Positions 11,148 to 29,212 of a stretch of 64,000 nt of DNA are shown here, one piece after another (the first letter of the stretch is position 1; the number at the start of each line of letters is the position of its first letter). Made by a program: the position numbers and the translations under genes. The notes beneath the pieces are model-generated. The model was not told the origin of the DNA. It saw only the letters and a list, made by a program, of their open reading frames with translations, and searched no databases. The stretch comes from Halioglobus sp. (lineage in GTDB: Bacteria; Pseudomonadota; Gammaproteobacteria; Pseudomonadales; Halieaceae): the NCBI GenBank assembly GCA_020443425.1, contig JAGRIE010000007.1, forward strand, positions 126,154 through 190,153. Reading direction: 5' to 3'.

Positions 11148-11267
11148 ATTGCCACCTCCTGCTGCCGTTGAGCCGCCAAAGTAAATCCCGGGATCCGGAC
11201 TGTGAGTATGCGTGGCAAAACAAAACAGTTAAAGTCGATGCTTTGCAGAATACGAGGAGACCGGCCG

Positions 11268-13774: not shown

Positions 13775-14566
13775 CTAGGCCTTGCGCAGCCGCACCTTGG
13801 CGGTCTGGCGGCTGATTGCCACCAGCTGGCCGGCGCTGTCCCAGTACTCGCCGTCCTCCTCGATCACACCGCAGGTCATGTGGCGCGAGGCGAGACGCAC
13901 CTGCAGCGGCCCCGGTGCGGGGTGGGCGCGCACCTGTACCGTCAGCTCCACTGTGGGCACCCAGCCGACCGGCCCGAACACGGTGAAAACCGGCGGTGGG
14001 AAGGCGTCGGCAAACATCAGCAGGCCGATCACATCCGGGGCACTGCCGTCGGCGTGCTGCACCCAGCCACGGAATTCGCCGCTGCCATCCGGCGTGGCGC
14101 GGTTGAAGACTTCACCCCCCGTGACCAGACGCGTCTCGGCGCGCTGGCGAAACTCCAGCCCCTTGTCCGGCGGCGGCTGGCACTGATCCCAACCCGGGTA
14201 CTGGGGCCTGTCGACACGCGACCAGCTCTCGCCATTGAGTTTCGCCAGATCGGTATAGGCCGCGGTGACCTTCACCTTGAGCTGGCCCTGCTGCGACATC
14301 CTGACCTCGGCGAAACTGGTGCTGCGGCCGCCGCCCAGCAGTTCGACATGGCAGTCGATGGGCCCCAGCGCAGTCGGCGCCATATAGAACGCGCTGACCG
14401 TCAGCGGATCCTTGTGCGGCAGCGCGGCGCGCAGTGCCCGCCCCGCCACGGCCAGCACATAGCCGCCGTTGGGCACCTCCCCGATACGCCAGCCCTTGCA
14501 AAGCTCACCCCGGAAGTGGTTCTCCGCCACCTGTTCAATTGCGGTTTCCCGCGCAAACTGTCCCAT
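13775..14566 (-). CDS. acyl-CoA thioesterase (TesB-like double hotdog)
   Basis: A 263-residue thioesterase-like protein with two hotdog repeats. The first (about 10-115) includes GWRIGEVPNGGYVLAVAGRAL and DPLTVSAFYMAPTALGP, typical of the YbgC/TesB-like acyl-CoA thioesterase family. The second (about 165-260) includes APDVIGLLMFADAFPPP. The ATG at 14566 has an AAGGAG seven bases upstream; longer frames start without such support. The family hydrolyses acyl-CoA; chain length cannot be judged. It is divergent from the large envelope operon. Confidence 0.82.
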   Translation of the reverse strand: MGQFARETAIEQVAENHFRGELCKGWRIGEVPNGGYVLAVAGRALRAALPHKDPLTVSAFYMAPTALGPIDCHVELLGGGRSTSFAEVRMSQQGQLKVKVTAAYTDLAKLNGESWSRVDRPQYPGWDQCQPPPDKGLEFRQRAETRLVTGGEVFNRATPDGSGEFRGWVQHADGSAPDVIGLLMFADAFPPPVFTVFGPVGWVPTVELTVQVRAHPAPGPLQVRLASRHMTCGVIEEDGEYWDSAGQLVAISRQTAKVRLRKA

Positions 14567-14617
14567 AATACTCCTTCGGTCGTCGACGCATTGCCAATGC
14601 GCCAGAGGGCGGGTATT

Positions 14618-14645
14618 TTGTCCGCCCCACGCAGTAATGTATAGT
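14618..14645 (+). promoter_or_regulatory. promoter of the 13-gene envelope operon
   Basis: TTGTCC (14618-14623) and TATAGT (14640-14645) have a 16-base spacer, 64 bases before the first start codon. This is the only good promoter-like sequence found ahead of the operon, in the spacer divergent from the thioesterase gene. Confidence 0.5.
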
Positions 14646-14709: not shown

Positions 14710-16014
14710 ATGATGACAAAGTCCAATCCTGGCACTCTGGCACGGATCATGGCGCTCACCGCCATGCTGGCGTCCCCTCTCGCACCGGCCCTGGACCAGG
14801 AGCTGGCACTGGCACAGGACGCGCAGCAACAAGCCCCGGCCGAAAACGCGCCGCCCATCGTGCAGGACGACTCACCGGACTACGCCAGCGAGCTGCCTTC
14901 CTCCTATGTCACCTCCTCCCACCAGATCATGGCCTACAACCGCGCCATCAAGGACGCCGAGTCGCGCGAGGGCGCGTACGGGGCGAGCCTGTCGGAATCG
15001 GTGCTCGGACTGGCGCGGATACTGCAGTCCCAGGGGCGCCACGACGAGGCGATCAAGCTCTACAAACGCGGCCAGCACCTGACGCGGATCAACGAGGGGC
15101 TGTACTGCCCGCAGCAGATTCCCATGCTGCAGGGCGAGATTGCCAGCCACAAAGCCCTGCAGAGCTATGCGCTGGCCGATGAGCGCCAGAACTACCTGTA
15201 CCGGGTCCAGACCAAGGCGATCGGCAGCGGCGATGCGCTGGTAGACGCGTTCATGGATCAGGCGAAGTGGCAGTACGAGGCCTACCAACTGGGCCTGGGG
15301 CGGGGGGGCTACGACCGGCTTATCGATATGTGGGAGCTGTACCGCATGGCCTTCAACGACGTCATCGAGCGCGAGGGCAAGGCGTCGCCGAAGCTGCTGC
15401 GCCCCCTGCACGGTATGCTGGAGGCACAGTACCTGATCTCCAGCGTCGATATCCGGCCGTCGACGCCGGTATTTACCGAGGACGGGCAGATCGACGAGGA
15501 GCTGCTGCGCTTCAAAACCTACCACGCCCAGAGTTACAAACAGGGCAATGCCGTCATCGAGGCCATCGCCAGCATCGAACAGGCGCAAACGCAGCACCGG
15601 GACAGCTCCCCGGCCCAGACGCTGGTGATGCTGGGCGACTGGCGCCTCTGGAACGGCCGCACCGATGACGCGTGGGCGGCGTACCGCGAGGCGGCCACGG
15701 AACTTGCGCGGGAAAGTGATGCCCAAGAGAAAGCGCGCCGTCTGTTCGGCGAGCCGGTACCGCTGCCCGCCATCGAGGACATCAACCCGCTGCCGCCGAC
15801 GGTAACGACCGACGAACAGGCCGTCACCCTCGCGTTCAGGGTCAACGAGCAGGGCAAGGTGCGGGATATCGAGCGCCTGGATGACGACGAGGAGGCGGAC
15901 CGGCAGGCCTATCGCCTGATCCGGCAGCTGCGCAACACCCGGTTCCGGCCCCGACTCGAGGCGGGACAACCAGTAGAGACGGATAACATTGTTAAATCTT
16001 TCCAGATTCAATAG
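14710..16014 (+). CDS. periplasmic TPR protein with TonB-C-like C terminus (operon gene 1)
   Basis: A 434-residue exported protein. A signal peptide (about 1-27, cleavage after APA) is followed by an acidic, Gln-rich linker. Helical repeats of TPR type come next (for example SVLGLARILQSQGRHDEAIKLYKRG near residues 95-120, and a second set near 300-340). The C-terminal domain (about 365-434) has the beta-alpha-beta layout of the energy-transducer TonB_C family: VTLAFRVNEQGKVRDIE, then LIRQLRNTRFRPRLEAGQP. Such ends normally contact an outer-membrane partner. The start is the first of two adjacent ATGs after an AGGGGGT site. Its stop overlaps the next gene by 26 bases. Confidence 0.75.
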   Translation: MMTKSNPGTLARIMALTAMLASPLAPALDQELALAQDAQQQAPAENAPPIVQDDSPDYASELPSSYVTSSHQIMAYNRAIKDAESREGAYGASLSESVLGLARILQSQGRHDEAIKLYKRGQHLTRINEGLYCPQQIPMLQGEIASHKALQSYALADERQNYLYRVQTKAIGSGDALVDAFMDQAKWQYEAYQLGLGRGGYDRLIDMWELYRMAFNDVIEREGKASPKLLRPLHGMLEAQYLISSVDIRPSTPVFTEDGQIDEELLRFKTYHAQSYKQGNAVIEAIASIEQAQTQHRDSSPAQTLVMLGDWRLWNGRTDDAWAAYREAATELARESDAQEKARRLFGEPVPLPAIEDINPLPPTVTTDEQAVTLAFRVNEQGKVRDIERLDDDEEADRQAYRLIRQLRNTRFRPRLEAGQPVETDNIVKSFQIQ

Positions 16015-17167
16015 CGCCGCCGGGCGCCAACCAGTTACCCTGACGGGCGCGGTATGCCTGTGCCTGCTGCTGTCCGGCTGCCCCACCGCCAGCACGCCCA
16101 CCAAGCCGGAGTCGTCTTCTTCCAGCAGCAGCACACCGCCGCCGAGCAGCAGTTCCAGCAGCTCTGCCGGCAGCACCAGCACCAGCGCCAGTTCCAGCAG
16201 CGCGACCAGCAGTCCCGGCACATCCGCCGCCAGTTCGACCGCCAGCGGCGGCGCCACCGGCGCCCAATCCAGCGGCACTGAAGGCAGCGAGAACAGCACT
16301 GCCGACGGCAGCAGCAGTGATCAGGTGGGACCACCGGAGGAGACGACAGCACAGTCCGGCGGCGAACCCTCGACAGCCGATGACAGCCTCGCCGACGGCG
16401 AGCAGCAGGCCGCTGGCAGCGCGGAACCGACTTTCAGCGAACAGTCCGCCGACAGCGCCGGCCTGCCCGACCTGCGCGACAGTCCGGGCCTCGAAGACAC
16501 CCCGCCCGGCAGCGGTGCCGCACCGGGCAGCGCCGGACAGGCGACGGCCGGCACTGCATCGGGCGGCACAGGACAGAGCACTGGCGGCGGCAGCGGCCAG
16601 GGCGACGCACAGGCCACTGGCCAGGGTGCGGCAGGCGCGGGCGGCACCTCGGGCAGCGGTTCGTACGGCAGCTACGGCAGCGTGTCGGGCCTGCCGGCGG
16701 GCAGCGGCGGCAGCGGCCCCCTCACCCCCGCCGAGCAGGTGGCCATCCTCGATGCGCAGCTGGAGAAAGGCGCCAGCGAATTTGACGCCCTGATACTGAA
16801 AACCGAGGCCGAGCAGCGCGAGGCTGCGCGCGCTGCGGCCAAACAGTCCTCCTCGCGGAGCGGCGGTTCCGGCGGCGGCATCTCCGCCGGTATCAGCACC
16901 GACAGCGCGGAACAGGGCAACAGCCCCTATGACGAGGGCATGGCGAGTGCGGGCGGCGGCTACAGCACCGGCGGCGGCATGGGCGGCGCCGGCGGCGGCA
17001 CACCGCCACCGGACGCCGCCAAGTATCCGGCCCCGGCAGATATTCCCAGCGGCAGCGATGACGATGTCGTGGCCAGGCAGTTGCGCGAGGCGGCATCGCG
17101 TGAGACCGACCCGGCCGTGCGCGAAAAGCTGTGGGATGAATACCGCAAATACAAGGGAATCAAATAG
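15989..17167 (+). CDS. Ser/Gly-rich low-complexity lipoprotein (operon gene 2)
   Basis: A 392-residue putative lipoprotein with no recognised domain. After a signal peptide with lipobox LSGC (Cys31) comes a Ser-rich tract (about residues 40-90, mainly Ser/Thr/Pro). A Gly/Ala/Ser-rich low-complexity stretch runs to about 245. A short predicted helix (AEQVAILDAQLEKGASEFDA) follows, then more Gly-rich sequence and a charged helical end (VARQLREAASRETDPA...). The only usable start is TTG at 15989, inside gene 1, which suggests translational coupling. The composition suits an extended flexible spacer in the periplasm or at the surface. Despite the repeats, the codon pattern is like its neighbours. 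Confidence 0.7.
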   Translation: MLNLSRFNSAAGRQPVTLTGAVCLCLLLSGCPTASTPTKPESSSSSSSTPPPSSSSSSSAGSTSTSASSSSATSSPGTSAASSTASGGATGAQSSGTEGSENSTADGSSSDQVGPPEETTAQSGGEPSTADDSLADGEQQAAGSAEPTFSEQSADSAGLPDLRDSPGLEDTPPGSGAAPGSAGQATAGTASGGTGQSTGGGSGQGDAQATGQGAAGAGGTSGSGSYGSYGSVSGLPAGSGGSGPLTPAEQVAILDAQLEKGASEFDALILKTEAEQREAARAAAKQSSSRSGGSGGGISAGISTDSAEQGNSPYDEGMASAGGGYSTGGGMGGAGGGTPPPDAAKYPAPADIPSGSDDDVVARQLREAASRETDPAVREKLWDEYRKYKGIK

Positions 17168-18375
17168 TGGCGACACTGCGAATGCTGACCGTTGTGGGCC
17201 TGAGCCTGCTGCTGGGTGCCTGTGTCAACCAGACCATCAAAAGCACCTCGGCGCCGCCGATAAAAACCGCCGCCGCCCCGGTCCCTGAGGAGCAGTTGCT
17301 GGATGTCGCCGTGGTGGTGTTCGATCCCGGCCTCGATGAATACGACGAGGACGAGCCGGTCTACCCCGAGGTGCGCAAGGCCGAGTCCCGCTTTATGCCG
17401 ATGCAGCTGTCGCAGGCCATGCAGGACAGCGGCGCCTGGGGCGCGGTGCGGGTGGTGCCGGACGACGGCGAAGTGAACGACATCATGGTGCGCGGCAAAA
17501 TCCTGCGCTCCGATGGTGAGACACTGGCACTGGCGATCACTGCCACCGACTCACGCGGCGAGGTCTGGCTGGACAAAACGTATACGGGCGAGGCCAGCCG
17601 CTATGCCTACGAGTCCCCGACCCGCAATGCCAGTGACCCGTTCCAGGCCGTCTACAATACGATTGCCAACGACCTGTTGCAGGAACTCGAGGCGCTGCCG
17701 CCGAAAGAGCGCAGCAATGTGCGGGTGGTGACAGAACTGCGTTTCGCGCGCAGCTTTTCACCCGACGCTTTCGACGGGTACCTGAAGCAGAACCGCAAAG
17801 GCCAGTTTGAAGTACAGCGACTGCCGGCTGAGAGCGACCCCATGCTGGCGCGCGTGCGCCAGATTCGCGAGCGCGACAATGTCTACGTCGACACCCTGCA
17901 GGCCTACTACGTCACGTTCGACGAGAAGATGGCGGCCCCCTACCAGGACTGGCGCAAGGCCAGTTATGAGGAAGTGCTGGCGCTGGAGCAACTGCAGGCC
18001 GAGAGCGTGCGCAACCTCATCATCGGCGGGCTGGCCGTGATCGGCGGCATCGCGGCGGCCACCACCGGCGACAGCCAGACCAGCCGCGTCGCCGGCCAGG
18101 TCGCCGTGCTCGGTGGCGGCCTGATGGTCAAGAGCGGCCTGGACAAACGCAACGAAGCGCAGATTCACGTGCAGGCGCTGGAAGAACTGGGCGCTTCGCT
18201 GGAAGCCGAAGTCACCCCCCAGGTGATCGAGTTGGAAGACAGCACGGTGACACTCACCGGTAACGTAGAGCAACAGTACGCCCAGTGGCGCTCCGTGCTG
18301 GCCGATATCTACCGCGCCGAGATCGGCGACCTGGAATTACCCGAGGATTCCGCCCGCTCTGCTGATACACTCTGA
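17167..18375 (+). CDS. lipoprotein of unknown function with glycine-zipper-like helix (operon gene 3)
   Basis: A 402-residue lipoprotein: signal peptide with lipobox LGAC (Cys19). An alpha/beta domain (about 45-190) has the feel of CsgG/GNA1162-type lipoproteins (DVAVVVFDPGLDEYD, MVRGKILRSDGETLALAITATDS); this similarity is only impression-level. A helical part follows, then a hydrophobic Gly-rich segment (about 277-297, IIGGLAVIGGIAAATTG) that could insert in a membrane. The GTG start at 17167 overlaps the stop of gene 2 by one base (TAGTG). No family is recognised with confidence. Confidence 0.72.
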   Translation: MATLRMLTVVGLSLLLGACVNQTIKSTSAPPIKTAAAPVPEEQLLDVAVVVFDPGLDEYDEDEPVYPEVRKAESRFMPMQLSQAMQDSGAWGAVRVVPDDGEVNDIMVRGKILRSDGETLALAITATDSRGEVWLDKTYTGEASRYAYESPTRNASDPFQAVYNTIANDLLQELEALPPKERSNVRVVTELRFARSFSPDAFDGYLKQNRKGQFEVQRLPAESDPMLARVRQIRERDNVYVDTLQAYYVTFDEKMAAPYQDWRKASYEEVLALEQLQAESVRNLIIGGLAVIGGIAAATTGDSQTSRVAGQVAVLGGGLMVKSGLDKRNEAQIHVQALEELGASLEAEVTPQVIELEDSTVTLTGNVEQQYAQWRSVLADIYRAEIGDLELPEDSARSADTL

Positions 18376-18410
18376 TCCGTTCCCCTGACACCCAAGGCCC
18401 CGACGACGGC

Positions 18411-19961
18411 ATGCCCTCTCACAATGACCCAGTAAAACCGATACCGTTTGACGCCGTAGAGGCGGCACCGACCCCCAGCGCCACCACCACGACACCGCGC
18501 AGCGAGGCGCAGCGCGGCACGCCGGTCTGGGTGCTGCCGGCGCTGGCGCTGCTGGTGGTACTGGCCGCTGTGGTGGTGTTTTTGTTGCCGGCCGCACTGG
18601 AGGAGCGACCCGTCGCGCCGGCGGCGTCGACCGCCGAGGCGGGCGCCGCGGATACGCAGGCCGCCGCCAACGGCCCGGCACAGCCGGCAGTTCCCGCCGT
18701 CGAGGAGGCCGCCCCCTGGTCTGACGCACAGCTGGCCCACCAGCGCAAAGAGGCGCAGGAGCTGGCCGCGGAATTACTGGAACTGCAGCTGGCGCTGCAG
18801 GAGCGCGGCGCCGGGCAGTGGGCGACAGCGGCCTTCGCGGCCGTGACACCGATCGCGACGGCGGGCGATGAACTGTACAAGAACCGCGAATACGCCGCCG
18901 CCACCGAGCAGTACCGGCAGGGGCTGGCCGCGCTGCAGGCACTGCAGGACTCGATACCACAGGTACTCACCGGGTTGCTGGAACAGGCCCGCCAGGCGCT
19001 GGCACAGGGCGATGCCGACGCCGCAATCAGCGCACTGGAGACGGCGGCGCTGATTGAGCCCGATCACAGCGACATCGCGACCCTGCGGCAACGCGCCGAG
19101 GTACTGCCGCAGCTGTTACCGCTGTTGGCCGACGCACAGGCTGCCGAGGCGGCAGGCGATCTGGCCCAGGCCCGGACGCTGCTGCAACAGGCCACCGAAC
19201 TGGACCCGCTGCACACCGGCGCGCAGGAGGCGCTGCAGCGCGTCACCACCCGGGCGCGGGACCAGGACTTCAACCAGTCGATGAGCGACGGTTACGCGGC
19301 CCTCGGCCAGGGCCGCTACGACAGCGCCCGCAAGGCGTTCAATGCGGCGGCAAAGCTGCAGCCCGGTTCAAAGGAGGCGGCCAGTGCATTGCAGGAAGTG
19401 AGCGCCGCCGAGACGGCCCAGCGCCTCGCCAGCCTCAACCAGCAGGGCCAGCGCGAGGAGCAGCAGGAACAGTGGGCAAAGGCCGTGGCCGCGTATGAAC
19501 AGGCGCAGAAAATAGACGGCAGCGTGCTGTTCGCCGCCGAGGGGCTGCAGCGGAGCAGGATGCGCGCCGAGGTTGACCAGCAGCTGCGCACCGCCGTCGC
19601 CGACCCGCTGCGACTGTCCGATACCGCAGTCGCCGCTGCCGCTGAACAACTGCTGGCGCAGGCGCGGCAGATATCGCCGCGCGGCCCGGTGCTGGAGCAG
19701 CAGCTCAGCGCGCTGGAGACGGCACTGCGCCGGGCCAACACCGAGGTCACCGTGACCCTGCGCTCCGATGCGAAAACGGAAGTCATTGTCTACAAGGTGG
19801 CGCGGCTGGGCAGTTTCAGCGAGACAGCGCTCACGCTGCGCCCGGGCAACTACACCGCAGTGGGCACTCGCGCCGGCTATCGCGATGTGCGTCACAGCTT
19901 CACCGTTTCGGCTGACTCGCCGCCGGCACCGGTCACCATTGCCTGCACGGAACCAATCTGA
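18411..19961 (+). CDS. membrane-anchored TPR protein with PEGA-like C terminus (operon gene 4)
   Basis: A 516-residue protein with a short cytoplasmic N terminus, one membrane helix (about residues 39-60, WVLPALALLVVLAAVVVFLLP) and an Ala/Pro linker. An all-helical periplasmic region (about 105-425) carries several TPR-like repeats (GDELYKNREYAAATEQYRQGLAAL; GDLAQARTLLQQATELDPLHTGAQEAL; GRYDSARKAFNAAAKLQPGS). The C-terminal 75 residues form a beta domain of PEGA type (TALTLRPGNYTAVGTRAGYRDV). It shares its architecture with gene 5: N-terminal anchor followed by periplasmic repeats and PEGA. Confidence 0.75.
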   Translation: MPSHNDPVKPIPFDAVEAAPTPSATTTTPRSEAQRGTPVWVLPALALLVVLAAVVVFLLPAALEERPVAPAASTAEAGAADTQAAANGPAQPAVPAVEEAAPWSDAQLAHQRKEAQELAAELLELQLALQERGAGQWATAAFAAVTPIATAGDELYKNREYAAATEQYRQGLAALQALQDSIPQVLTGLLEQARQALAQGDADAAISALETAALIEPDHSDIATLRQRAEVLPQLLPLLADAQAAEAAGDLAQARTLLQQATELDPLHTGAQEALQRVTTRARDQDFNQSMSDGYAALGQGRYDSARKAFNAAAKLQPGSKEAASALQEVSAAETAQRLASLNQQGQREEQQEQWAKAVAAYEQAQKIDGSVLFAAEGLQRSRMRAEVDQQLRTAVADPLRLSDTAVAAAAEQLLAQARQISPRGPVLEQQLSALETALRRANTEVTVTLRSDAKTEVIVYKVARLGSFSETALTLRPGNYTAVGTRAGYRDVRHSFTVSADSPPAPVTIACTEPI

Positions 19962-20033
19962 GCGGATGACAGCAATACCCAGTCACCCCGGGGCCTGAGC
20001 GCCCGCGGCCCATCAACCAATGACACACTGCCC

Positions 20034-22091
20034 ATGCCCAAGCAACCCGTAACCATCGCGCCCAGCGGCTTCACCCCGCTGGACCAGGCCACCACCCGTT
20101 CACCGGGCCCGCGCAAGACCGGGCGGTGGGTGCTGCTCGCCTGCCTGCTGCTGTTCGCACTGGTGATGCTGTTCCTGTTCAGCGCGCGCTCGCTGAAGAT
20201 CACGGTGGTCGCCGACGTGCCGGCACAGGTCTCGGTATCCGGGCTCGCCCTGCCCTTCGGCGAGCGCTACCTGCTGCTGCCCGGGGAGTACACCGTCAGC
20301 GCGGCGGCCGAGGGTTACCAGCCGCTGGACACCCGCGCCACCGTGGACGAGCGCGACAGCCAGTCGCTGGAACTGACACTGCAGCCGCTGCCCGGCCTGG
20401 TGTCCATCGACAGCACCCCGACCGGCGCCAGTGTCTCGGTCGACGGCGAGTCCGTCGGCCGCACCCCCATTGTCGATCTCGAACTGCCGCAGGGGGAACA
20501 CCAGCTGCAGTTCGAGGAGGAGCGGCACCTGCCGCTGGCACAGACGCTGCAAGTCACCGGCCGCAGCGTGCAGCAGAGCGTCGCGGTGCAACTGGAACCG
20601 GCCTGGGCGACAGTGACCCTCGACAGCGTGCCGGCTGGCGCCACCGTGCTGGTCGACGGCGAGGCGGCGGGGACTACACCGGCCTCACTGGAGGTCATGC
20701 AGGGCGAGCACCAGCTGATGCTGCAGCTGCCCTCGTTTGCCGACTGGCAGAAAACACTGCGGATCGAGGCCGGAAAGGACCAGGACCTGGGCCAGGTCAA
20801 GCTGCAACCCGCCCCCGGTGAGCTGGCACTGAGCACGGTCCCCAGCGGCGCCAATGTCACTCTCGACGGGGAATTCCAGGGGCAGACCCCGCTGACGCTG
20901 GATATCAGTCCCGGGCAGGCGCACCGGCTGGATGTGTTCAAACCCGGCTACCAGCGCTTCAATGACACGGTGGAGATGGCAGCCGCCACACAGGCGCAGC
21001 GCTCGGTAACCCTGAAGGCGCTGCTGGGCGAGGTGCGCCTGCGCATCAGCCCGGCCAGCGCCGTGGTCCGCATCGACGGCCGCACCATCGACAAGGGCGT
21101 GCAGACGCTGTCGCTGCCGGCGGTGGAACACTCAGTGGAAGTGAGCCTGGACGGTTACGCCACCGTGCGCCGGCAGGTCACACCGCGCCCCGGCCTGCCA
21201 CAGCTGGTGGAGGTCACGCTACAGACACAGGAGGCGGTCACCCTGGCGCGCATCAAACCCGAGATCACCACGCCGCTCGGCCAGACCCTGCTGCTGTTCA
21301 AGCCGGCTGAATCGGCGCTGGCGGACTTCACCATGGGCTCCTCGCGCCGCGAGCCGGGCCGACGCGCCAACGAGGTACTGCACCCGGTGGCACTGCGCCG
21401 CATGTTCTACCTGCAGACCACGGAAGTCACCAACGCGCAGTTCCGCCAGTTCCAGCCGGGCCACAACTCGGGCCAGATAGAGGGCAACAGCCTCAACCAG
21501 GAGCACCAGCCGGTGGCACAGGTGAGCTGGCAGCAGGCCGCGGCATTCTGCAACTGGCTCAGCGAGCGCGAGGGCCTGCCGCCATTCTACCGCCAGAGCA
21601 ACGGCATCGTGACCGGCTACAACAGCGACGCCACCGGCTACCGCCTGCCCTCGGAGGCCGAGTGGGCCTGGGCCGCGCGCGCCAGCGGCGACAAACTGCT
21701 GCTGTTCCCCTGGGGCGACACCTTCCCGCCGACACTGGTGGCGGAGAACTACGCCGACGACACCTCCGCCTATGTCACCGGCCGCGTCCTGAACGGTTAC
21801 AAGGACGGCTATGTGGTCAGCGCACCGGTGGCCTCCTTCAAGCCCAACCAGCACCGCCTCTACGATATGGGTGGCAATGTGTCGGAGTGGGTGCACGACG
21901 TCTACAGCATCCCGCCGGCCAACGGCGCCACCGAGCGAGATCCGCTGGGCAGCCAGGGCGGCGACAACTATGTGATCCGCGGCGCCGCCTGGACGCATGC
22001 CAAGCTGTCCGAGTTGCGCCTGACCTATCGTGATTATGGGCAAGCCGGGCGGGATGACGTAGGATTCCGCCTTGCGCGCTACGCGGAGTAA
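20034..22091 (+). CDS. membrane-anchored PEGA-repeat protein with FGE/SUMF1-fold domain (operon gene 5)
   Basis: A 685-residue protein: cytoplasmic tail (1-30), one membrane helix (31-51), about five PEGA-type beta repeats (about 55-110, 121-187, 191-255, 262-327 and 331-395; for example STPTGASVSVDGESVGRTP, SVPAGATVLVDGEAAGTTP, TVPSGANVTLDGEFQGQTP), then a sulfatase-modifying-factor fold (about 415-683). The last domain shows FTMGSS, VTNAQF, PVAQVSW, YRLPSEAEWAWAARA, YDMGGNVSEW and GFRLAR. The active-site cysteine pair of true formylglycine-generating enzymes is absent: the RGGSW-Cys region reads VIRGAAWTHAKL, and the only Cys in the domain is Cys506. It is therefore probably a binding domain, as in many PEGA or signalling-linked FGE folds. 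Confidence 0.85.
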   Translation: MPKQPVTIAPSGFTPLDQATTRSPGPRKTGRWVLLACLLLFALVMLFLFSARSLKITVVADVPAQVSVSGLALPFGERYLLLPGEYTVSAAAEGYQPLDTRATVDERDSQSLELTLQPLPGLVSIDSTPTGASVSVDGESVGRTPIVDLELPQGEHQLQFEEERHLPLAQTLQVTGRSVQQSVAVQLEPAWATVTLDSVPAGATVLVDGEAAGTTPASLEVMQGEHQLMLQLPSFADWQKTLRIEAGKDQDLGQVKLQPAPGELALSTVPSGANVTLDGEFQGQTPLTLDISPGQAHRLDVFKPGYQRFNDTVEMAAATQAQRSVTLKALLGEVRLRISPASAVVRIDGRTIDKGVQTLSLPAVEHSVEVSLDGYATVRRQVTPRPGLPQLVEVTLQTQEAVTLARIKPEITTPLGQTLLLFKPAESALADFTMGSSRREPGRRANEVLHPVALRRMFYLQTTEVTNAQFRQFQPGHNSGQIEGNSLNQEHQPVAQVSWQQAAAFCNWLSEREGLPPFYRQSNGIVTGYNSDATGYRLPSEAEWAWAARASGDKLLLFPWGDTFPPTLVAENYADDTSAYVTGRVLNGYKDGYVVSAPVASFKPNQHRLYDMGGNVSEWVHDVYSIPPANGATERDPLGSQGGDNYVIRGAAWTHAKLSELRLTYRDYGQAGRDDVGFRLARYAE

Positions 22092-22094
22092 AAC

Positions 22095-22334
22095 ATGAAC
22101 CATCGACGACAGCTGTCCCCGCTGCTGCTCGCCCTGCTGCTGGCAGCGGCGCCACTGCAGGCCCAGCCTGAGAGCGGCGCCGAGCCGGCAGCGGACAGCG
22201 AGCCCGCAGAACAGGCCGCGCCGGCACAGCAGGAAACCGCACCGGCCGACGCCGACAAACGCTCTCCATTCGACTACCGCTCCTCGGAGGAAATTTCCGA
22301 AGATGTGCCCGTCTCCTTTCCGGTGGATATATAG
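22095..22334 (+). CDS. small secreted acidic protein (operon gene 6)
   Basis: A 79-residue protein with a signal peptide (MNHRRQLSPLLLALLLAAAPLQA) followed by a Glu/Ala/Pro-rich disordered stretch. It ends in an acidic tail, SPFDYRSSEEISEDVPVSFPVDI, that looks like a short linear interaction motif. It begins three bases after gene 5 and ends 11 bases before the channel gene. No family was recognised. The tight spacing between an FGE/PEGA protein and a channel gene suggests a structural linker or regulator of the complex. Confidence 0.65.
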   Translation: MNHRRQLSPLLLALLLAAAPLQAQPESGAEPAADSEPAEQAAPAQQETAPADADKRSPFDYRSSEEISEDVPVSFPVDI

Positions 22335-22345
22335 GACACCCTGCA

Positions 22346-23143
22346 ATGAAACAAAGAATGTCATCCGAATTTATCTACCAGCTGTTTGCGCTGCTGATCG
22401 CGATTATTGTGGTCCACGCGCTCTATGTCGGCGTCATCCGTCCCAGCGCGAAAGCGCACCTGGAGCGTGAAGCGGCGATGCAGGCGGCCGGTGAGGAGGT
22501 CGTCACCACCCGCAGTCTCGCCGTGGTGATCGGCGATTACGAGCAGGAGTCCTGTTTTATCCTGCTGATCTGGGCGCTCGCCATCATGGGCTACAAAGGG
22601 CGCCGCGGCATGCACGAGCGCAGCATGCTGGACCGGCGCCTGCTGGAGATCCCGGAGGGCACCACCGTGTTGCCGGAAGACGCGCGCGAGTACAGTCGCG
22701 CGCTGGAGGCGCTGCCGGAATCGGAGCAGGACTACCTGCTGCCGCGCACACTGCTGGCCGCGCTGCAGCGCTTTGCCACCACCGGCAGCATCCAGGCTGT
22801 CTCCGAGACCATCAAGGAGAACTGCGAAATTGAATCGGACCGCCTGGACTCGGAGATGTCCATGGTGCGCTATATCGCCTGGGCCATTCCCTCGATCGGG
22901 TTTATCGGCACCGTGCGCGGTATCGGCGATGCACTGGGGCAGGCGTACAAGGCCGTTGAGGGCGACATCTCCGGCGTCACCGCCAGCCTCGGCGTGGCGT
23001 TCAACAGCACCTTTGTGGCACTGGTGCTGAGCATCATCATCATGTTCGCACTGCACCAGCTGCAGCTGTCGCAGGAGCGCCTGGTACTGGACTGCCAGCG
23101 CTACGCCGACCGCCGCCTGCTGCGCTTTCTGGTGGCAAGCTGA
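22346..23143 (+). CDS. MotA/TolQ/ExbB-family proton channel protein (operon gene 7)
   Basis: A 265-residue inner-membrane protein with four predicted membrane helices (about 9-31, 69-83, 174-193 and 213-238). A cytoplasmic loop of about 90 residues lies between helices 2 and 3. The family signature lies across helices 3 and 4: IPSIGFIGTVRGIGDALG, then GVTASLGVAFNSTFVALVLSIII. Known relatives form pentamers that pass protons or sodium around a dimer of single-helix partners (ExbD, TolR, MotB). No canonical partner is present here, but the two following VWA proteins have a matching N-terminal anchor. It overlaps gene 8 by one base. Confidence 0.9.
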   Translation: MKQRMSSEFIYQLFALLIAIIVVHALYVGVIRPSAKAHLEREAAMQAAGEEVVTTRSLAVVIGDYEQESCFILLIWALAIMGYKGRRGMHERSMLDRRLLEIPEGTTVLPEDAREYSRALEALPESEQDYLLPRTLLAALQRFATTGSIQAVSETIKENCEIESDRLDSEMSMVRYIAWAIPSIGFIGTVRGIGDALGQAYKAVEGDISGVTASLGVAFNSTFVALVLSIIIMFALHQLQLSQERLVLDCQRYADRRLLRFLVAS

Positions 23144-24423
23144 TGAGTATCGGACTGCTCGACCTCAACGACAGCAACCTGCAGCTGTGGCACGGCGACG
23201 CCCGGGTACAGAGTCCCGGCTATGCGCTGTTGCAGGGCGCGGACTACCTGTTTGGCGCACCCGCACGCGCGGCCGCCCGCCTGCAGCCGCGCGACATCAA
23301 CACCCGCTTCTGGTGGCAGCTGAGCACCGAGAAACTGCAGCCGGCGCTGGGCCCGGCGCGACACACCGGGGACCTCGTGCACGCCCACCTCAAGCAGCTG
23401 CACGCCCAGGCCCAGCACCCGGATGAACTGCTGCTGGCGGTGTCCGGCAGCATGCAGCACGAACAGCTGGCACTGCTGCTGGGTATCGTGCAGCAGTGCC
23501 CGTTCGATGCCGTCGGCCTGGTCAACCGCAGCGTGGCGCTGGCCAGCCTCTACAGTCGCGGCGGCCGGCTGTTCCACCTCGAACTGCAGCTGCACCAGGC
23601 GGTGATTTCAGAGCTGGCGCAGCACGACGGCCACATCGAATTGCAGCGCACTGTACCCCTGCCCGGTTGCGGCCTGCTGCAGTTGCAGGAGCGACTGGTC
23701 GAACTGATCGCCGCCGAGTTTGTGCGCCAGACCCGCTTCGACCCGCGGCGCAAGGCAGCCACGGAACAACAGCTGTACGATGCACTGCCGACCACCCTGC
23801 GCGCGCTGCACACCAGTGCCGAGACCAATATGGACATCAACGGCTACCAGGCCCGCGTCGGTACGCACCAGTTGCAGTCCGCCGGCAGGCGCCTGTTCGA
23901 CAGCGCCAACGAGACCATCGGGATACTGCGGCCCGACGATCGCGTAATCGCCGACCCACTGACGGCCCTGCTGCCGGGCCTGGGCACTGCCTTCGCGCAA
24001 CTGGATGTGCTGCAGCCCGACGATATGCAGCGCGCGCTGCGGACACACCAGCAGCGACTGGTACAGCGCGAACAGGCGCTGAGCTTTATCACCACCCTGC
24101 CCTGCATCGAGCCGCGCGGGAAGGCCGCCCCCGCCGCGGCGAAACCCGCGCCGTCACCGGCACCTGCGCCTGCGCCCGAACCGGTGTGCCGCGCCACCCA
24201 CCTGCTGTCCGATCACGTGGCACAGGCACTGCTGCCCGGTGGCACCGCGCTGGCCGACGGCTGGGAGCTGTACCGCAGTGACGCCGGCTGGCAACTGCGC
24301 GGCAGCGGTGGCAGTGTCGCGGTGAACGGCCGGCCCTATCGCGCCGGGCAGGTCCTCGACAGCGGGGATCGCATCGTCATCGGGCAGGCGCCAGCGGCGG
24401 TGTTGATCGAGGTCCGGGGCTGA
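23143..24423 (+). CDS. actin/Hsp70-like protein with C-terminal FHA-like domain (operon gene 8)
   Basis: A 426-residue cytoplasmic protein without signal peptide. The N-terminal region suggests a degenerate actin/Hsp70 ATPase fold: a beta hairpin GLLDLNDSNLQLW at 4-16 (phosphate-1-like), and DELLLAVSGSMQHEQLALLL at 94-113 leading to AVGLVNRSVALASLY, which parallels the Hsp70 VPAxF...Q to NEPTAAALAY segment. An Ala/Pro-rich linker (about 325-355) joins a small beta domain (about 365-425) with the FHA pattern W-x-L-RGSGGSVAVNG ... GQVLDSGDRIVIG. The assignment is by pattern only and would need structural comparison. It sits directly between the channel and the VWA genes, so it may be the cytoplasmic element. 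Confidence 0.6.
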   Translation: MSIGLLDLNDSNLQLWHGDARVQSPGYALLQGADYLFGAPARAAARLQPRDINTRFWWQLSTEKLQPALGPARHTGDLVHAHLKQLHAQAQHPDELLLAVSGSMQHEQLALLLGIVQQCPFDAVGLVNRSVALASLYSRGGRLFHLELQLHQAVISELAQHDGHIELQRTVPLPGCGLLQLQERLVELIAAEFVRQTRFDPRRKAATEQQLYDALPTTLRALHTSAETNMDINGYQARVGTHQLQSAGRRLFDSANETIGILRPDDRVIADPLTALLPGLGTAFAQLDVLQPDDMQRALRTHQQRLVQREQALSFITTLPCIEPRGKAAPAAAKPAPSPAPAPAPEPVCRATHLLSDHVAQALLPGGTALADGWELYRSDAGWQLRGSGGSVAVNGRPYRAGQVLDSGDRIVIGQAPAAVLIEVRG

Positions 24424-24428
24424 CCGCC

Positions 24429-25520
24429 ATGGCGAGGAAGAAACGCGAATTCACCACCTTCAACCTGAGTTTCCTGGACATCATGTCCTGCGGCTTTGGC
24501 GCGGTGATCCTCGTGTTCCTGATCATGAACCACGCCATTGAGGAGGAGTCGGAAATACTCAACGAGAACGTGTTGTCGGAGGTCAGCCTGCTCGAAGAGG
24601 ATGTCAGCGAAGGCGAAAAAGACCTGGTGCGCCTGCGCAACACCCTCTCGGAGCTGGACCAGAAAATGGCCGAGGCACAGGGCCTGGCGACCCGCATTGC
24701 CAAGGACACTGAGAACTTCGAGGCGCAGATCAGTAGCCGCAAGCGCGAGGGCTACACCGAGAGCGAGGATATCGAGAGCCTCAAGGCCGAGCTGCTGGCG
24801 CTGGAGAGCGAGGTGAAGGAACTGCGGCAGGCCAGCCAGAAAAGCTCCGGCGCCAATGCCCGCGACTTCACCGGCGACGGCAACCGCCAGTACCTGACCG
24901 GGCTCAACCTCGGCGGTAACAACATCGCCATCCTGCTCGACGTCTCGGCCAGTATGCTGGCCGACAAGCTGGTGCAGATCATCCGCCTGCGCAATATGGG
25001 CGAGTCGGTGCAGCGCAAGGCGGAGAAGTGGACGAAAAGCCTGGACACCGTCGACTGGCTGCTGGCACAGCTGCCGGTGGCCAGCAAATACCAGGTCATC
25101 ACCTTCAACACCTCGGCGAAACCGGCGCTGGCCGACACCGAGGGCAAATGGCTGGAGGTCGCCAACCAGGCGCAACTGGGCGATGTCAGCAGCGCCCTGC
25201 ACCGGATAACCCCGAGTGGCGGCACCAGCCTGGAGAACGCGTTCCTCGCCCTGCACAAGCTGTCGCCGGCACCGGATAACATCTTCCTGATCACCGACGG
25301 CCTGCCGACACAGGGCACGTCGCCGCCGCGGGGCAACACCGTCACCGGCCCCGAGCGCCAGAAACTGTACGCACAGGCGGTGCGGCAATTGCCGTCGCGG
25401 GTGCCTGTGAATATCATATTGGCGCCGATGGAGGGGGATCCGATGGCCGTATCCGAACTGTGGCTGCTGGCGCTGCGCACCCAGGGCTCGCTGATGAGCC
25501 CCTCGCGGGACTGGCCCTGA
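24429..25520 (+). CDS. membrane-anchored coiled-coil VWA protein 1 (operon gene 9)
   Basis: A 363-residue protein. A short basic N terminus and FNLSFLDIMSCGFGAVILVFL (one membrane helix, about 14-33) are followed by a long coiled coil (about 37-140) and a von Willebrand A domain (about 163-355). The MIDAS metal site is complete: DVSAS with Asp171/Ser173/Ser175, Thr266 in GGTSLENA, and Asp290 in LITDG. The anchor is placed as in ExbD/TolR/MotB (helix within the first 35 residues, bulk periplasmic), but the peptidoglycan-binding domain is replaced by VWA. It ends TGATG, overlapping gene 10. Confidence 0.88.
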   Translation: MARKKREFTTFNLSFLDIMSCGFGAVILVFLIMNHAIEEESEILNENVLSEVSLLEEDVSEGEKDLVRLRNTLSELDQKMAEAQGLATRIAKDTENFEAQISSRKREGYTESEDIESLKAELLALESEVKELRQASQKSSGANARDFTGDGNRQYLTGLNLGGNNIAILLDVSASMLADKLVQIIRLRNMGESVQRKAEKWTKSLDTVDWLLAQLPVASKYQVITFNTSAKPALADTEGKWLEVANQAQLGDVSSALHRITPSGGTSLENAFLALHKLSPAPDNIFLITDGLPTQGTSPPRGNTVTGPERQKLYAQAVRQLPSRVPVNIILAPMEGDPMAVSELWLLALRTQGSLMSPSRDWP

Positions 25521-26521
25521 TGGCGCGGCGCAAGACGCGAGGCGTCGCCGAGTTTTCACTGTCCTTCCTGGACGTGATCTGCTGTGGTTTCGGCGCCATC
25601 ATCCTGCTGCTGATGATCACCAAGACGGTACAGCCACAGATTATCGAGGCCTCCACCATCAACCTCGAGGGCAAACTGGCGGCGCTGCAGGAACTGCTGT
25701 TTGACATGCGCGGCGAGACCAAGGTTCTCAACCGCGACCTCAACGCGAAACAGGAGCAGCTGTCCGAGCACGAGGAGCGCATCGCCATCCTGCGCGCGCA
25801 GATGGCCAGTGCCAAATCGCGCTACGACAGCCTGCAGGTCGAGGACAGCAGCAACTCGGCCATCGCCGGCCAACTGGCCTCGGCCAAGCAGCAGTTGACG
25901 GAGGAGATGAAACGACTGCTGGGCACCCAGCACCAGTCGAAAAACCAGCTGATCGGCGGCATCCCGGTCGACAGCGAGTACATCATCTTCGTCATCGACA
26001 CCTCCGGCTCGATGTTTTCCTACGCCTGGAACCGCGTGCTGAAGGAGGTGCAGGAGACGCTGGCCATCTACCCGCAGGTCAAGGGTATCCAGGTGATGAA
26101 TGACATGGGCAACTACCTGTTCCAGAGCTACCGGGGCAAGTGGATTCCCGACACACCCGGGCGCCGCAAAATCATCCTGGAGAACCTGCGCGGCTGGAGT
26201 ATTTTCAGCAACTCCAGCCCGGTGGAGGGCATTGAGGCCGCGATCCGCACCTTCGCCTCACCGGGCAAGAAGATCAGTATCTACGTGTTCGGTGATGAGT
26301 TCACCGGCCCGTCGATTACGCAGGTGATCGACACCGTGGACCGGATAAACCGCAGCGATGCCAACGGCAACCGGCTGGTGCGCATCCACGCCGTCGGCTT
26401 CCCGACCCAGTTCAGCCGCGCCCCGCACCTGCAGGGTACCGGTATCCGCTTTGCCACGCTGATGCGCGAGCTCACCCGCCGCAACGGAGGCACGTTTGTC
26501 GCTCTCAATGACTTCCGCTAG
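25520..26521 (+). CDS. membrane-anchored coiled-coil VWA protein 2 (operon gene 10)
   Basis: A 333-residue paralogue in layout of gene 9: FSLSFLDVICCGFGAIILLLM membrane helix (about 12-32), a coiled coil (about 45-140), then a VWA domain (about 152-330) with DTSGS (Asp160, Ser162, Ser164) and a later Asp259 in VFGDEF. The MIDAS threonine position is less clear than in gene 9. The two proteins share the SFLD-(I/V)-x-CGFGA-(V/I)-IL motif of the helix, so they may form a heterodimer inside the channel. The ATG at 25520 overlaps the previous stop by one base. The 3' end overlaps gene 11 by 26 bases. Confidence 0.88.
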   Translation: MARRKTRGVAEFSLSFLDVICCGFGAIILLLMITKTVQPQIIEASTINLEGKLAALQELLFDMRGETKVLNRDLNAKQEQLSEHEERIAILRAQMASAKSRYDSLQVEDSSNSAIAGQLASAKQQLTEEMKRLLGTQHQSKNQLIGGIPVDSEYIIFVIDTSGSMFSYAWNRVLKEVQETLAIYPQVKGIQVMNDMGNYLFQSYRGKWIPDTPGRRKIILENLRGWSIFSNSSPVEGIEAAIRTFASPGKKISIYVFGDEFTGPSITQVIDTVDRINRSDANGNRLVRIHAVGFPTQFSRAPHLQGTGIRFATLMRELTRRNGGTFVALNDFR

Positions 26522-27164
26522 GTGCCGCGCACCAGCCCGGACAGCCGTCATGGTGGCCCTGCTGGGCCTGCTGCTCGCCTGCGGCCCGGCCCAGGTGGTG
26601 GTCCAAGGCCAGTTCCCGGCGCCGCTGATCGAGCCGCTGCCGCTCACGCTGGGTGTGTGGTACGGCGACGACTTTGCCGGGCACGAGTTCTTCGACGAAT
26701 CAAAGAGCCGCCAGGAATCCAGCTGGATTGTCAGTACCGGCGCCGCACAGGTGCAGATGTGGGACACCCTGCTCGCCGGCATGTTCACCCGCGTCGTCCA
26801 GCTGCAGACCCGGCCGCGGCCGGGCCAGCCGACGCCGGGCGTCGACGCCGTGTTCATCCCCCATGTCGAGGAGTTACAGTACGCGATACCGGCTCACACC
26901 AATGTCAAAGTGTATGAAATCTGGATGCGCTACCGTTTCGACCTGCTCAATGCCAGCGGTGGTGCCATCGCCGAGTGGGGCATGACCAGCTACGGCAAGA
27001 CCCCGACCGCCTTCCTGCAGAGCGACCAGGACGCGGTCAACCTCGCCGCCGTCATGGCACTGCGCGACGCCGGCGCCAATTTCGCCGCGAACTTCACCCG
27101 TGTCCCCGCCATCGCGCAGTGGCTGGACGAGAAGGGCATCCTGCCCGCCACGGAGGCACCGTGA
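26496..27164 (+). CDS. lipoprotein of unknown function (operon gene 11)
   Basis: A 222-residue lipoprotein with lipobox LLAC (Cys29) and an alpha/beta body (LTLGVWYGDDF..., SSWIVSTGAAQVQMWDTLLAGMF, VDAVFIPHVEELQYAI). This recalls the small outer-membrane lipoproteins that accompany transport or assembly machines, but I cannot name a family. The start is decided by the ribosome-binding site: GGAGG at 26486-26490 is five bases from TTG 26496, but 17 from the in-frame ATG at 26508, so TTG is preferred. Its stop overlaps the next GTG (GTGA). Confidence 0.7.
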   Translation: MSLSMTSARCRAPARTAVMVALLGLLLACGPAQVVVQGQFPAPLIEPLPLTLGVWYGDDFAGHEFFDESKSRQESSWIVSTGAAQVQMWDTLLAGMFTRVVQLQTRPRPGQPTPGVDAVFIPHVEELQYAIPAHTNVKVYEIWMRYRFDLLNASGGAIAEWGMTSYGKTPTAFLQSDQDAVNLAAVMALRDAGANFAANFTRVPAIAQWLDEKGILPATEAP

Positions 27165-27814
27165 GAGGGTGCATTCGCACACTGCTGTGCGGCGCCGGCC
27201 TGTCGCTGCTGGGCGGCTGTGTCACCGCCACGGTTGACGAACAGGTGTACAACGCGCCCACTGCGGGCATCGGCGACGACAGCGTGGTGATCCTCGGCCG
27301 CCGCCACGCCAGCGACTACGAGACCGAGCCCGATTTTGTGCGCTGTGTGGGTGACTACATCCAGTCCGGCGACAACTCCATCACGGTCATCGACGAACTG
27401 GAGTTTCTCAACGCCGTCTACCCCTGGTTCGAGCCGCGCACTGCGCCGCTGCACCCGCTCGATATCGAGCGACTGCTGAAGCAAAAGCCGGTGGCGGAAA
27501 AGATGGCGGCGCTGCGGGTCGAGTACATGATCTGGCTCGACGGCTCGACCGAGCGCACCGGGGGCAGCGGGTCGATGACCTGCAGCCTCGGCGGCTGCTT
27601 CGGCTTCGGCACCTGGGGCCACGATGCCAACTACGAGGCCACCATCTGGGACTTCACCGACAAGGCCGAGGTCGGCCATGTCAACACCAGTGCGTCAGGC
27701 CAATCCTATATGCCTGCCGTGATCGTCCCGATACCCATTATCGCCCCGGTGCAGGGAACAGCCTGCGACGGTCTCGGGCAGCAATTGCTCCAATTCCTGT
27801 CCAGCGAACACTAG
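27161..27814 (+). CDS. lipoprotein of unknown function (operon gene 12)
   Basis: A 217-residue lipoprotein: MRGCIRTLLCGAGLSLLGGC, lipobox LGGC with Cys20. The rest is a globular alpha/beta domain (DDSVVILGRRHASDYE, FVRCVGDYIQSGDNSITVID) ending in a hydrophobic VIVPIPIIAPVQGTACDGLG segment. An internal CSLGGCFGFG could form a disulfide. The GTG start at 27161 overlaps the stop of gene 11 by four bases and has GGAGG four bases upstream. No family was recognised. Genes 11 and 12 look like a lipoprotein pair of the same complex. Confidence 0.7.
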   Translation: MRGCIRTLLCGAGLSLLGGCVTATVDEQVYNAPTAGIGDDSVVILGRRHASDYETEPDFVRCVGDYIQSGDNSITVIDELEFLNAVYPWFEPRTAPLHPLDIERLLKQKPVAEKMAALRVEYMIWLDGSTERTGGSGSMTCSLGGCFGFGTWGHDANYEATIWDFTDKAEVGHVNTSASGQSYMPAVIVPIPIIAPVQGTACDGLGQQLLQFLSSEH

Positions 27815-27823
27815 GAGATTCGT

Positions 27824-29212
27824 ATGCACCGCACGGCGCTTGCCCTCTTCCTGCCACTGGTGCTGCTGGCGCTGCTGCCCGGCTGCGCCGGCAGCGCGTC
27901 AACCGGCGAAGCGATGCACCAGGATATGGTTGAACAGGGTGCACCCTACAACGATCCCGAACTGCAGGCCTATGTGACTCGCATCGGCCAGCGACTGGTC
28001 GCCAGCAGCGATGAGCCCGATACGACGTTTACCTTCACCGTGCTCGACAGCCCCGACATCAACGCCTTTGCCCTGCCGGGCGGCTATATCTACATCAACC
28101 GCGGCCTGCTGGCCTATCTGGAGAATGAAGCCGAGCTGGCCGGTGTACTGGCCCACGAGATCGGTCATATCACCGCCAGCCACCACAACCGGCGCCAGGC
28201 GGCCTCGGTGGCCAACAAGGTCGTGGCGACCACCACCTACGTGCTGACCGGCAGTGGCGATCTCGCCAATGCCTCCAATATGTACGGCACCGAGCTGGTC
28301 AGCGGCTATGGCCGCGATATGGAACTGGAGGCGGACGGCCTGGCTGCGGAGTATATGTACAATGTCGGCTACGACCCCGAATCGCTGCTGGAAGTCATCG
28401 GCGCACTGAAGGACCAGGAGCAGTTCCAGCGCATCAAGGCGAAGGCGGGCGGCAAACCGGTGGCCACCTATCACGGCCTCTACGCCTCGCATCCGCGCAA
28501 CGACCAGCGCCTGAAGACAGTCATCCAGGCCGCCGGCGAACTCGACAGCAGCGCGCAGCCTGACGATCCCGCGGTGCCGGGCGAGTTCCAGCAGCATATC
28601 GAGGGCCTGGTCTGGGGGGAGAGCGTACCCAGCGACCGCTCGGAAAGCCGCTACTACCACAACAAGCTGGGGTTCACCTTCGAGCGACCGCTGGACTGGA
28701 CTGTCACTGCGGGCGCCAGGGCCATTGTCGCCAGCGCCCCGGACGGCAGCAGTGAGCTGACTATCACCGTGCGTCGCCGCGACCCCAACGCATCGCCACA
28801 GGCCGTGCTGGAGGGCAGCCTCACAGGACAGCTCAGCGCCGGCGCCAAACTGGACCAGGCCGGGCTCAAAGGCTACACCGGGATCACCGGCAGCGGTGCC
28901 GGCGCGCGACGGGTTGCCGTTATTGATTACAACAACCTCAGCTACCTGTTCGACGGCGCCGCGCAAAACTTCAGTGCGCAGGATGCCGCGCTGCTGGCAA
29001 TGATAGAGAGCTTCCGCCCCATGCACCCGGCGGAACAGGGCACCAGCAACGGGCTCTACGTGCATTACATCCAGGTCCCGCAGGGTGCCACCATGGCCAG
29101 CCTGGCCGCCAGCACCCGCATTCCCGACGCCGAGGCCCAACTGCGCTTGCTGAACGGCTTGTACCCGCGCGGCGAACCGCGCACCGGGGACTGGATCAAG
29201 GTGATACGGTAA
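27824..29212 (+). CDS. M48-family metalloprotease lipoprotein (operon gene 13)
   Basis: A 462-residue periplasmic zinc protease of the BepA/YfgC/LoiP kind. It has a lipobox LPGC (Cys21), NAFALPGGYIYINRGLL (81-95), the zinc motif HEIGH (His111, Glu112, His115) and the third ligand region MELEADGLA (about 166-174). The C-terminal third (about 285-400) is a beta-rich domain and the last 50 residues resemble a LysM-like segment (HYIQVPQGATMASLAASTRIPDAEAQLRLLNGL). Members degrade or mature envelope proteins. As the last operon gene it may process or quality-control the complex. An ATG with AGGAGATTC upstream fixes the start. Confidence 0.9.
   Translation: MHRTALALFLPLVLLALLPGCAGSASTGEAMHQDMVEQGAPYNDPELQAYVTRIGQRLVASSDEPDTTFTFTVLDSPDINAFALPGGYIYINRGLLAYLENEAELAGVLAHEIGHITASHHNRRQAASVANKVVATTTYVLTGSGDLANASNMYGTELVSGYGRDMELEADGLAAEYMYNVGYDPESLLEVIGALKDQEQFQRIKAKAGGKPVATYHGLYASHPRNDQRLKTVIQAAGELDSSAQPDDPAVPGEFQQHIEGLVWGESVPSDRSESRYYHNKLGFTFERPLDWTVTAGARAIVASAPDGSSELTITVRRRDPNASPQAVLEGSLTGQLSAGAKLDQAGLKGYTGITGSGAGARRVAVIDYNNLSYLFDGAAQNFSAQDAALLAMIESFRPMHPAEQGTSNGLYVHYIQVPQGATMASLAASTRIPDAEAQLRLLNGLYPRGEPRTGDWIKVIR

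Follow-up and report, generated by a model that had tools for sequence, protein, structure and literature searches.

A conserved Halioglobus operon joins a TolQ-type channel to paired VWA proteins and probably encodes an ion-driven envelope machine

Thirteen consecutive open reading frames (ORFs), g1 to g13, lie on the plus strand at positions 14710 to 29212 of a 64,000-nucleotide stretch of Halioglobus sp. DNA (contig JAGRIE010000007.1 of assembly GCA_020443425.1), which we call the window. We propose that the products of this operon form a machine that spans the envelope and is powered by ion flow, a reading to which we assign a probability of about 0.72. An earlier note on the same DNA had proposed an ion-driven envelope machine, and this stands as the best reading: homologues of the genes co-occur elsewhere, and no ExbD or TolR lies beside the channel gene. 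The note had also called the machine undescribed, which holds for part of it. The motor core is already in print, as far as the main text of PMC12204202 (Mol Biol Evol 2025) goes; no other paper on the motor or on the wider operon appeared among the open-licence PubMed Central matches listed, judged by title and the start of the abstract. Overall, the operon is real and conserved and encodes a probably ion-driven envelope machine whose motor that paper has already recorded.

The gene order is widely kept. We examined 140 loci, 60 fetched from sampled genomes and 80 from GTDB records (partly the same contigs), and built hidden Markov models (HMMs) from them. The GTDB loci are 80 of 579 confirmed stretches (593 matched) and come mostly from Halieaceae, Halioglobus, Haliea, Luminiphilus and unclassified Gammaproteobacteria. 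HMM searches found all 13 genes collinear in 74 of the 140 loci (26/60 and 48/80) and a six-gene core, g3-g4-g5-g7-g9-g10, in order on one strand in 115 (52/60 and 63/80). Two of the other 25 loci are rearranged with all six core genes inside the fetched stretch: the channel gene stands behind the VWA pair in one (L149, genome G500), and several genes are moved or inverted in the other (L146, G285). The remaining 23 are without at least one core gene in the fetched stretch; for 20 of them, a contig end lies less than 700 bases from the first operon gene detected. No contig end accounts for the core genes missing from L113 (no g5 match), L148, whose g3 is situated elsewhere in the same genome, and L161. 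Among the first 20 relatives' loci, searched with tblastn, the genes found were collinear in 20/20. There, five loci that extend across the g6 position (L039, L042, L046, L047 and L048) gave no g6 match above the cut-off; L047 is also without g12 and g13, L048 is without g2, and the others end at contig ends.

The genes are also tightly packed. In the window, adjacent genes overlap or are separated by short gaps of at most 72 bases (between g4 and g5), as expected of the tight 13-gene operon first proposed. For pairs of neighbouring operon genes, each pair present in 95 to 139 loci, the gap has a median of only -38 to +30 bases, with overlaps overstated since each ORF was begun at its first possible start codon. 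Because these gaps are so small, we conclude that the arrangement is far beyond chance. A promoter had been suggested in front of g1. Two 9-of-12 matches do exist there, a weak signal against shuffled sequence (4 for the region versus 1.5 +/- 1.3 in shuffles).

Genes of the operon are inherited together. Within the order, g10 occurs in 94/390 sampled genomes and g3 in 93/390, all 93 among the g10 carriers (Fisher's test, 1.8e-90). The sole genome with g10 and without g3 (G108) has a contig ending beside g4, and 0/390 genomes hold g3 without g10. Counting the window's own genome, g10 is present in 29/369 genomes of a class-wide sample and in 16/398 of a phylum-wide one, where 13 of the 16 belong to one family of another class. 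Operons of that family (L162-L165, L168) consist of g2, g3, g4, g5, g7, g9 and g10, and g1 was not found in these five loci. The co-occurrence and, largely, the gene order anticipated by the note are thus kept not only in the family and the order but also in other orders of the same class and in one family from a different class.

Both g9 and g10 are found in 139/140 loci, and the remaining locus is truncated where its contig ends. In 128/140 loci g7, g9 and g10 stand in order; two loci are rearranged and ten are without one of the three in the stretch fetched. The gene g8 occurs in 126/140 loci, g6 in 118/140 and g1 in 95/140, and g1 and g11 to g13 are sometimes absent, elsewhere or inverted (for example in L143, L144, L152 and L155). 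In L143 and L144, g12 and g11 lie upstream and inverted, which indicates that the two can be relocated jointly and independently of the core. Two loci, L139 and L171, are second, diverged copies in genomes that also hold the main operon. Because they keep just g3, g4, g5, g7, g9 and g10, this reduced set is our best estimate of the machine's core. No g8 match was found in either second copy, and in L139 a small unassigned ORF precedes g7. What is widely conserved amounts to about six to nine core genes, to which g1 and g11 to g13 are more limited additions.

The channel protein g7 (22346..23143) matches the Pfam family MotA_ExbB (E 1.3e-14), bearing out its assignment to the MotA/TolQ/ExbB type. 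Counts of distinct sequences here and below exclude identical rows and ORFs shorter than 60% of the reference length, which leaves, for g10, 123 distinct sequences. Two threonines, T189 (22910-22912) and T222 (23009-23011), are kept in 114/114 distinct homologues. When g7 is aligned to TolQ chains, a weak match (E 0.9), T189 falls on the threonine of the GTV motif and T222 on that of the third transmembrane helix.

The two VWA proteins, g9 (24429..25520) and g10 (25520..26521), are clear paralogues (hhalign E 1.6e-19). Pfam recognizes VWA_2 in g9 (E 3.5e-7) and a VWA domain weakly in g10 (0.08-0.14). A further g10 match, to FTP at residues 134-168, scored 22 bits against a cut-off of 21 and was taken as spurious. 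Each protein begins with a short basic segment followed by one helix of the pore type that starts SFLD[VI]..CGFGA. Its aspartate is g9 D17 (24477-24479), an Asp in 120/120 ungapped rows (124 distinct sequences, four of them gapped there), and g10 D18 (25571-25573), an Asp in 123/123 distinct rows. The metal-ion-dependent adhesion site (MIDAS) is equally well kept. In g9 it comprises D171, S173 and S175 (123-124 of 124), T266 (117) and D290 (122); in g10 it comprises D160, S162, S164 and D259, with the D/S/S triplet in 123/123. A sequence search of the PDB with g9 and g10 returned mainly coiled-coil matches.

No ExbD accompanies this channel. The ExbD/TolR family PF02472 has seven matches in the source genome, a 4.3 Mb draft, and none on the window's contig (C200). 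An adjacent ExbD is present at five other channel loci of this genome but not at g7; a seventh, weak channel match (contig C156) is likewise without one. The genome also has adjacent genes for TolQ, TolR and TolA, each scoring above its curated cut-off (L001, contig C165), and because it has this set of its own, we consider the operon a system separate from Tol. Elsewhere in the genome, two loci (L003 and L004, contigs C189 and C22) encode an ExbB-type protein of 460-500 residues together with a second ExbB and an ExbD; after these comes a proline-rich ORF that resembles TonB by eye.

Several observations weigh against our interpretation. The two VWA proteins had been credited with an ExbD/MotB-like anchor. 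By eye, the start of their helix does resemble that of the genome's own ExbD helices (LTPLIDVV), but aligning g9 and g10 as profiles to two own-genome ExbDs yielded no significant similarity (a two-sequence profile, and so a weak test), and PF02472 matches neither protein. The anchor likeness is a motif resemblance. The p-value given above takes no account of shared ancestry, and the 140 loci are not independent of one another, with 123 distinct g10 sequences among them. Some loci are without g8 and g6, and one of 24 family genomes (G007, 96% complete) has no g9 match. Finally, it is from lipoboxes that we infer that g2 or g3 may reach the outer membrane.

Among the other parts is the core lipoprotein g3 (17167..18375), which domain scans placed in no family. 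Residues about 37-183 have a predicted fold of the TolB-N/CsgG/PelC/FlgT type; the protein also has a long helical hairpin that includes a hydrophobic, glycine-rich stretch. The model suggests, less firmly than for the g8 fold described below, that this N-terminal domain resembles outer-membrane ring proteins and TolB; a PDB sequence search with g3 gave one chain (E 0.0022, 43 residues covered). The source genome holds a lone g3 paralogue on contig C77 (41025-42119; L169:9026-10120), and no other operon gene was found around it within the 20 kb taken. In addition to the operon copy, 18/18 family genomes of the order sample show further g3-like matches.

Two core proteins are predicted to be anchored in the inner membrane by a single helix, in agreement with the note. 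In g4 (18411..19961), tetratricopeptide repeats (TPR_2, 3.3e-9) accompany a hydrophobic stretch at residues 41-59. In g5 (20034..22091), the stretch is at 33-51 and five PEGA stretches follow (7.3e-58). The note had missed a further g5 domain, of the FGE-sulfatase (SUMF1) family (3.7e-41). Formylglycine-generating enzymes (FGEs) carry catalytic cysteines near the C-terminus, and residues 647-667 of g5, a 21-residue segment, contain no Cys in 110/110 distinct homologues. The FGE domain of g5 is therefore probably inactive.

The g8 protein (23143..24423) is presumably cytoplasmic, and domain scans gave it no family. It had been described as actin- or Hsp70-like with an FHA-like end. A predicted structure confirms the overall fold of the Hsp70 nucleotide-binding domain, in a comparison spanning mainly residues 1-311, whereas the FHA assignment went unconfirmed, with 0/52 g8 members matching that family at E 0.5. 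A beta-rich domain forms the C-terminus, and a PDB sequence search with g8 gave no match. The phosphate loops of Hsp70 read DLGTT and DLGGGT. Glycine-rich loops of this sort were not seen in the 52 g8 rows, which instead show D[IL].D at positions 7-10 (D7 in 50, D10 in 52 and N9 in 34) and H.E.QLHQ at 145-152 (44-50 per position).

Two small or disordered proteins end in conserved motifs. The Ser/Gly-rich lipoprotein g2 (15989..17167) is probably disordered and closes with a segment (17057..17164) of the type DDDVVARQLREAA..E.DP..REKLW.EYRKYKG, clear in 17 of the 18 homologues inspected and weak in L157, where the g2 match itself is 29 bits. The small acidic protein g6 (22095..22334; 79 residues) is secreted judging by its sequence, as had been noted, and its tail (22263..22331) is of the type SE.ISEDLSVSFPVDI; the strict pattern occurs in 73/118, and looser variants occur in others.

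The accessory genes flank this set. At the 5' end, g1 (14710..16014) is a periplasmic protein in which the TPR and TonB-C-like domains named by the note are present as weak matches (TPR_12 6.4e-5, TonB_C 0.013), both under curated cut-offs. At the 3' end, g11 (26508..27164) and g12 (27161..27814) are lipoproteins with no Pfam match, and hhalign similarity of g12 to g11 and to g3 is confined to the signal-peptide region. The last gene, g13 (27824..29212), encodes a BepA-like M48 metalloprotease lipoprotein (Pfam M48 5.3e-36; NCBIfam BepA 111 of 570 bits) with the H, E and H of HExxH in 83/83 distinct homologues. Its C-terminus (29060-29209) appears LysM-like by eye, and Pfam gave no LysM match. 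Scored by a simple pattern, lipobox-like signals occur in most homologues of g2 (100/116), g3 (105/118), g11 (105/122), g12 (86/115) and g13 (72/100) and in 3/95 of g1, consistent with the five lipoproteins, one a protease, that had been counted.

The surroundings of the operon give no functional hint, because merely two clusters of flanking genes recur in at least four of 43 loci: a response-regulator-type ORF (five loci) and another ORF (four). Upstream in the window lie a gene without known family (13880-14641) and a gamma-glutamyltranspeptidase gene (11202-13052), both of which also neighbour the operon in many of the 20 loci fetched first. Directly downstream, an ORF of 355 residues (29379-30446) with no Pfam match adjoins the operon only in five loci from the closest relatives.

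These parts suggest how an ion-driven machine might be built. Sequence and comparison establish the co-inheritance, the gene order, the conserved residues of motor and MIDAS, and the predicted folds of g8 and, less firmly, g3; the stoichiometry, the rotation, the placement of the lipoproteins, the ligands and the physiological role are proposals. In our model g7 would form a pentameric ring in the inner membrane, while a single g9 and a single g10 would make up a two-helix axle, each helix bearing an ion-binding aspartate. We assign them this role because of their position, the aspartate, the absent ExbD and published models. Ion flow would turn the g9-g10 axle and with it the coiled coils and VWA domains in the periplasm, and the metal-dependent MIDAS faces could grip a partner. 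The inner-membrane proteins g4, with its TPRs, and g5, with its PEGA repeats and pseudo-FGE domain, might act as a static collar or scaffold. At the outer membrane, the lipoprotein g3 may provide a ring-type element, and g2 would be a tethered, disordered strap that docks on the machine by its conserved end. Where present, the pseudo-Hsp70 g8 could serve as a cytoplasmic regulator or assembly factor. By analogy with Tol-Pal, the work done on outer-membrane lipoprotein links is most likely mechanical, moving or tensioning them in a cell that has Tol as well.

A bolder version of this proposal is that the operon encodes a trans-envelope rotary machine of a new class. Here the TolQ-type ring would turn a heterodimeric VWA axle of g9 and g10, and its two MIDAS faces would act as a metal-dependent clutch. 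The clutch would grip acidic peptide tails, for instance the SEDLSVSFPVDI-type tail conserved in g6 or the DDD-helix at the end of the g2 strap, thereby winding or pulling outer-membrane lipoproteins through a g3 ring. We offer this tentatively and think it rather unlikely. To our knowledge, ion-driven envelope motors are few: flagellar stators, Tol, Ton, gliding, type IX secretion and Zorya. Roughly one in four of the order's sampled genomes (94/390) carries the present motor, and its source genome also holds Tol and Ton-type motors. Because its core genes are defined and it offers residues for point mutation as well as candidate ligand motifs, what it does in the envelope can be tested directly.

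Alternatively, the operon could be a divergent Tol-Pal or Ton system that energizes known outer-membrane receptors or Pal. The channel g7 is in the same superfamily, the end of g1 is weakly TonB-C-like and g3 has a TolB-N-like domain. However, g7 scores 28 bits against a tolQ cut-off of 221, the contig has no ExbD/TolR match, and g1 was not found in the other-class loci. The separate TolQ-TolR-TolA set and the further ExbB-ExbD loci of this genome also argue against such a system, and we consider it improbable.

We give similarly little credence to a secretion or surface-motility machine of the GldLM/type IX secretion system (T9SS) or AglRQS kind, in which g5 would be the GldK-like ring protein. 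In the T9SS, a motor and an FGE-fold protein occur together, and the best NCBIfam match of g5 is to GldK/PorK (E 2.9e-29; 102.6 bits, with 350 needed). Yet other FGE relatives match g5 too, and it has an N-terminal helix instead of a lipobox. The NCBIfam gldL, gldM and gldN models were unmatched in the ten proteins scanned, and the flanks hold no recurring cargo or adhesin gene. An anti-phage motor system of the Zorya kind is very unlikely: Zorya uses a MotA-type motor, and there are weak matches of ZorA to g7 (E 0.0022, 15 bits) and of LmuB over the coiled coils of g9 (E 0.0024) and g10 (0.0012), but no ZorB, ZorC, ZorD or ZorE match at E <=0.01 emerged from ten of the 13 proteins (g1, g2 and g6 excluded), and defence genes usually spread patchily, whereas g9 matches in 23/24 family genomes and the gene order is fixed.

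Our preferred reading, an ion-driven trans-envelope machine, agrees best with a motor family that is already published. The main text of PMC12204202 reports TM-vWA genes that co-occur tightly with tolQ, in pairs of different sequence and without tolR or exbD. It models TolQ and the paired vWA proteins as a motor in which an Asp faces a ring of Thr. The family was seeded from Idiomarina and is found mainly in Proteobacteria and Verrucomicrobia, and the main text gives no established function for TolQ-vWA motors. Like these TPH-vWA motors, the operon has a tolQ-like gene adjoining a differing TM-vWA pair (in order in the 128 loci counted above) and no tolR or exbD nearby, judging by PF02472 on contig C200. 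It also has the pore-helix Asp and channel Thr, the latter placed through the weak TolQ alignment. The 80 of 579 confirmed loci listed include no Idiomarina record. The main text of PMC12204202 treats the motor and vWA genes, and PEGA, formylglycine and M48 are absent from it. Relative to that text, the present work adds the wider operon, the g3 and g8 folds and the end motifs of g2 and g6.

Other known systems share single features with the operon. Tol-Pal likewise has a TolQ-type channel, lipoprotein partners and a domain like that at the start of g3; it differs in that the operon carries its axle helices in VWA proteins and includes no TolR or TolA, a separate TolQ-TolR-TolA set being present in the genome. 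The sodium-driven polar flagellar motor combines PomAB with the FlgT and MotX/MotY rings. None of the 13 proteins scores above cut-off as a flagellar gene, and the fold match of g3 to FlgT is tied with PelC and others. An AAA/MoxR-VWA operon of the Bat-like kind was also considered and rejected, as 0/13 proteins match an AAA family at E 1 (Pfam). With the GldKLM machinery of the T9SS and gliding, the operon shares an ion-driven motor with an FGE-fold partner, but its PEGA-FGE protein belongs to the inner membrane and is not a lipoprotein, and a VWA axle takes the place of GldM. A parallel to the VWA domains themselves is midasin, which pulls through a VWA-MIDAS domain. Both have an intact MIDAS on a motor-attached VWA domain, although the operon would draw on an ion gradient in the envelope and midasin on an AAA ATPase. 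If the clutch model were true, the machine would be an ion-powered counterpart of midasin, working in parallel to Tol-Pal and Ton.

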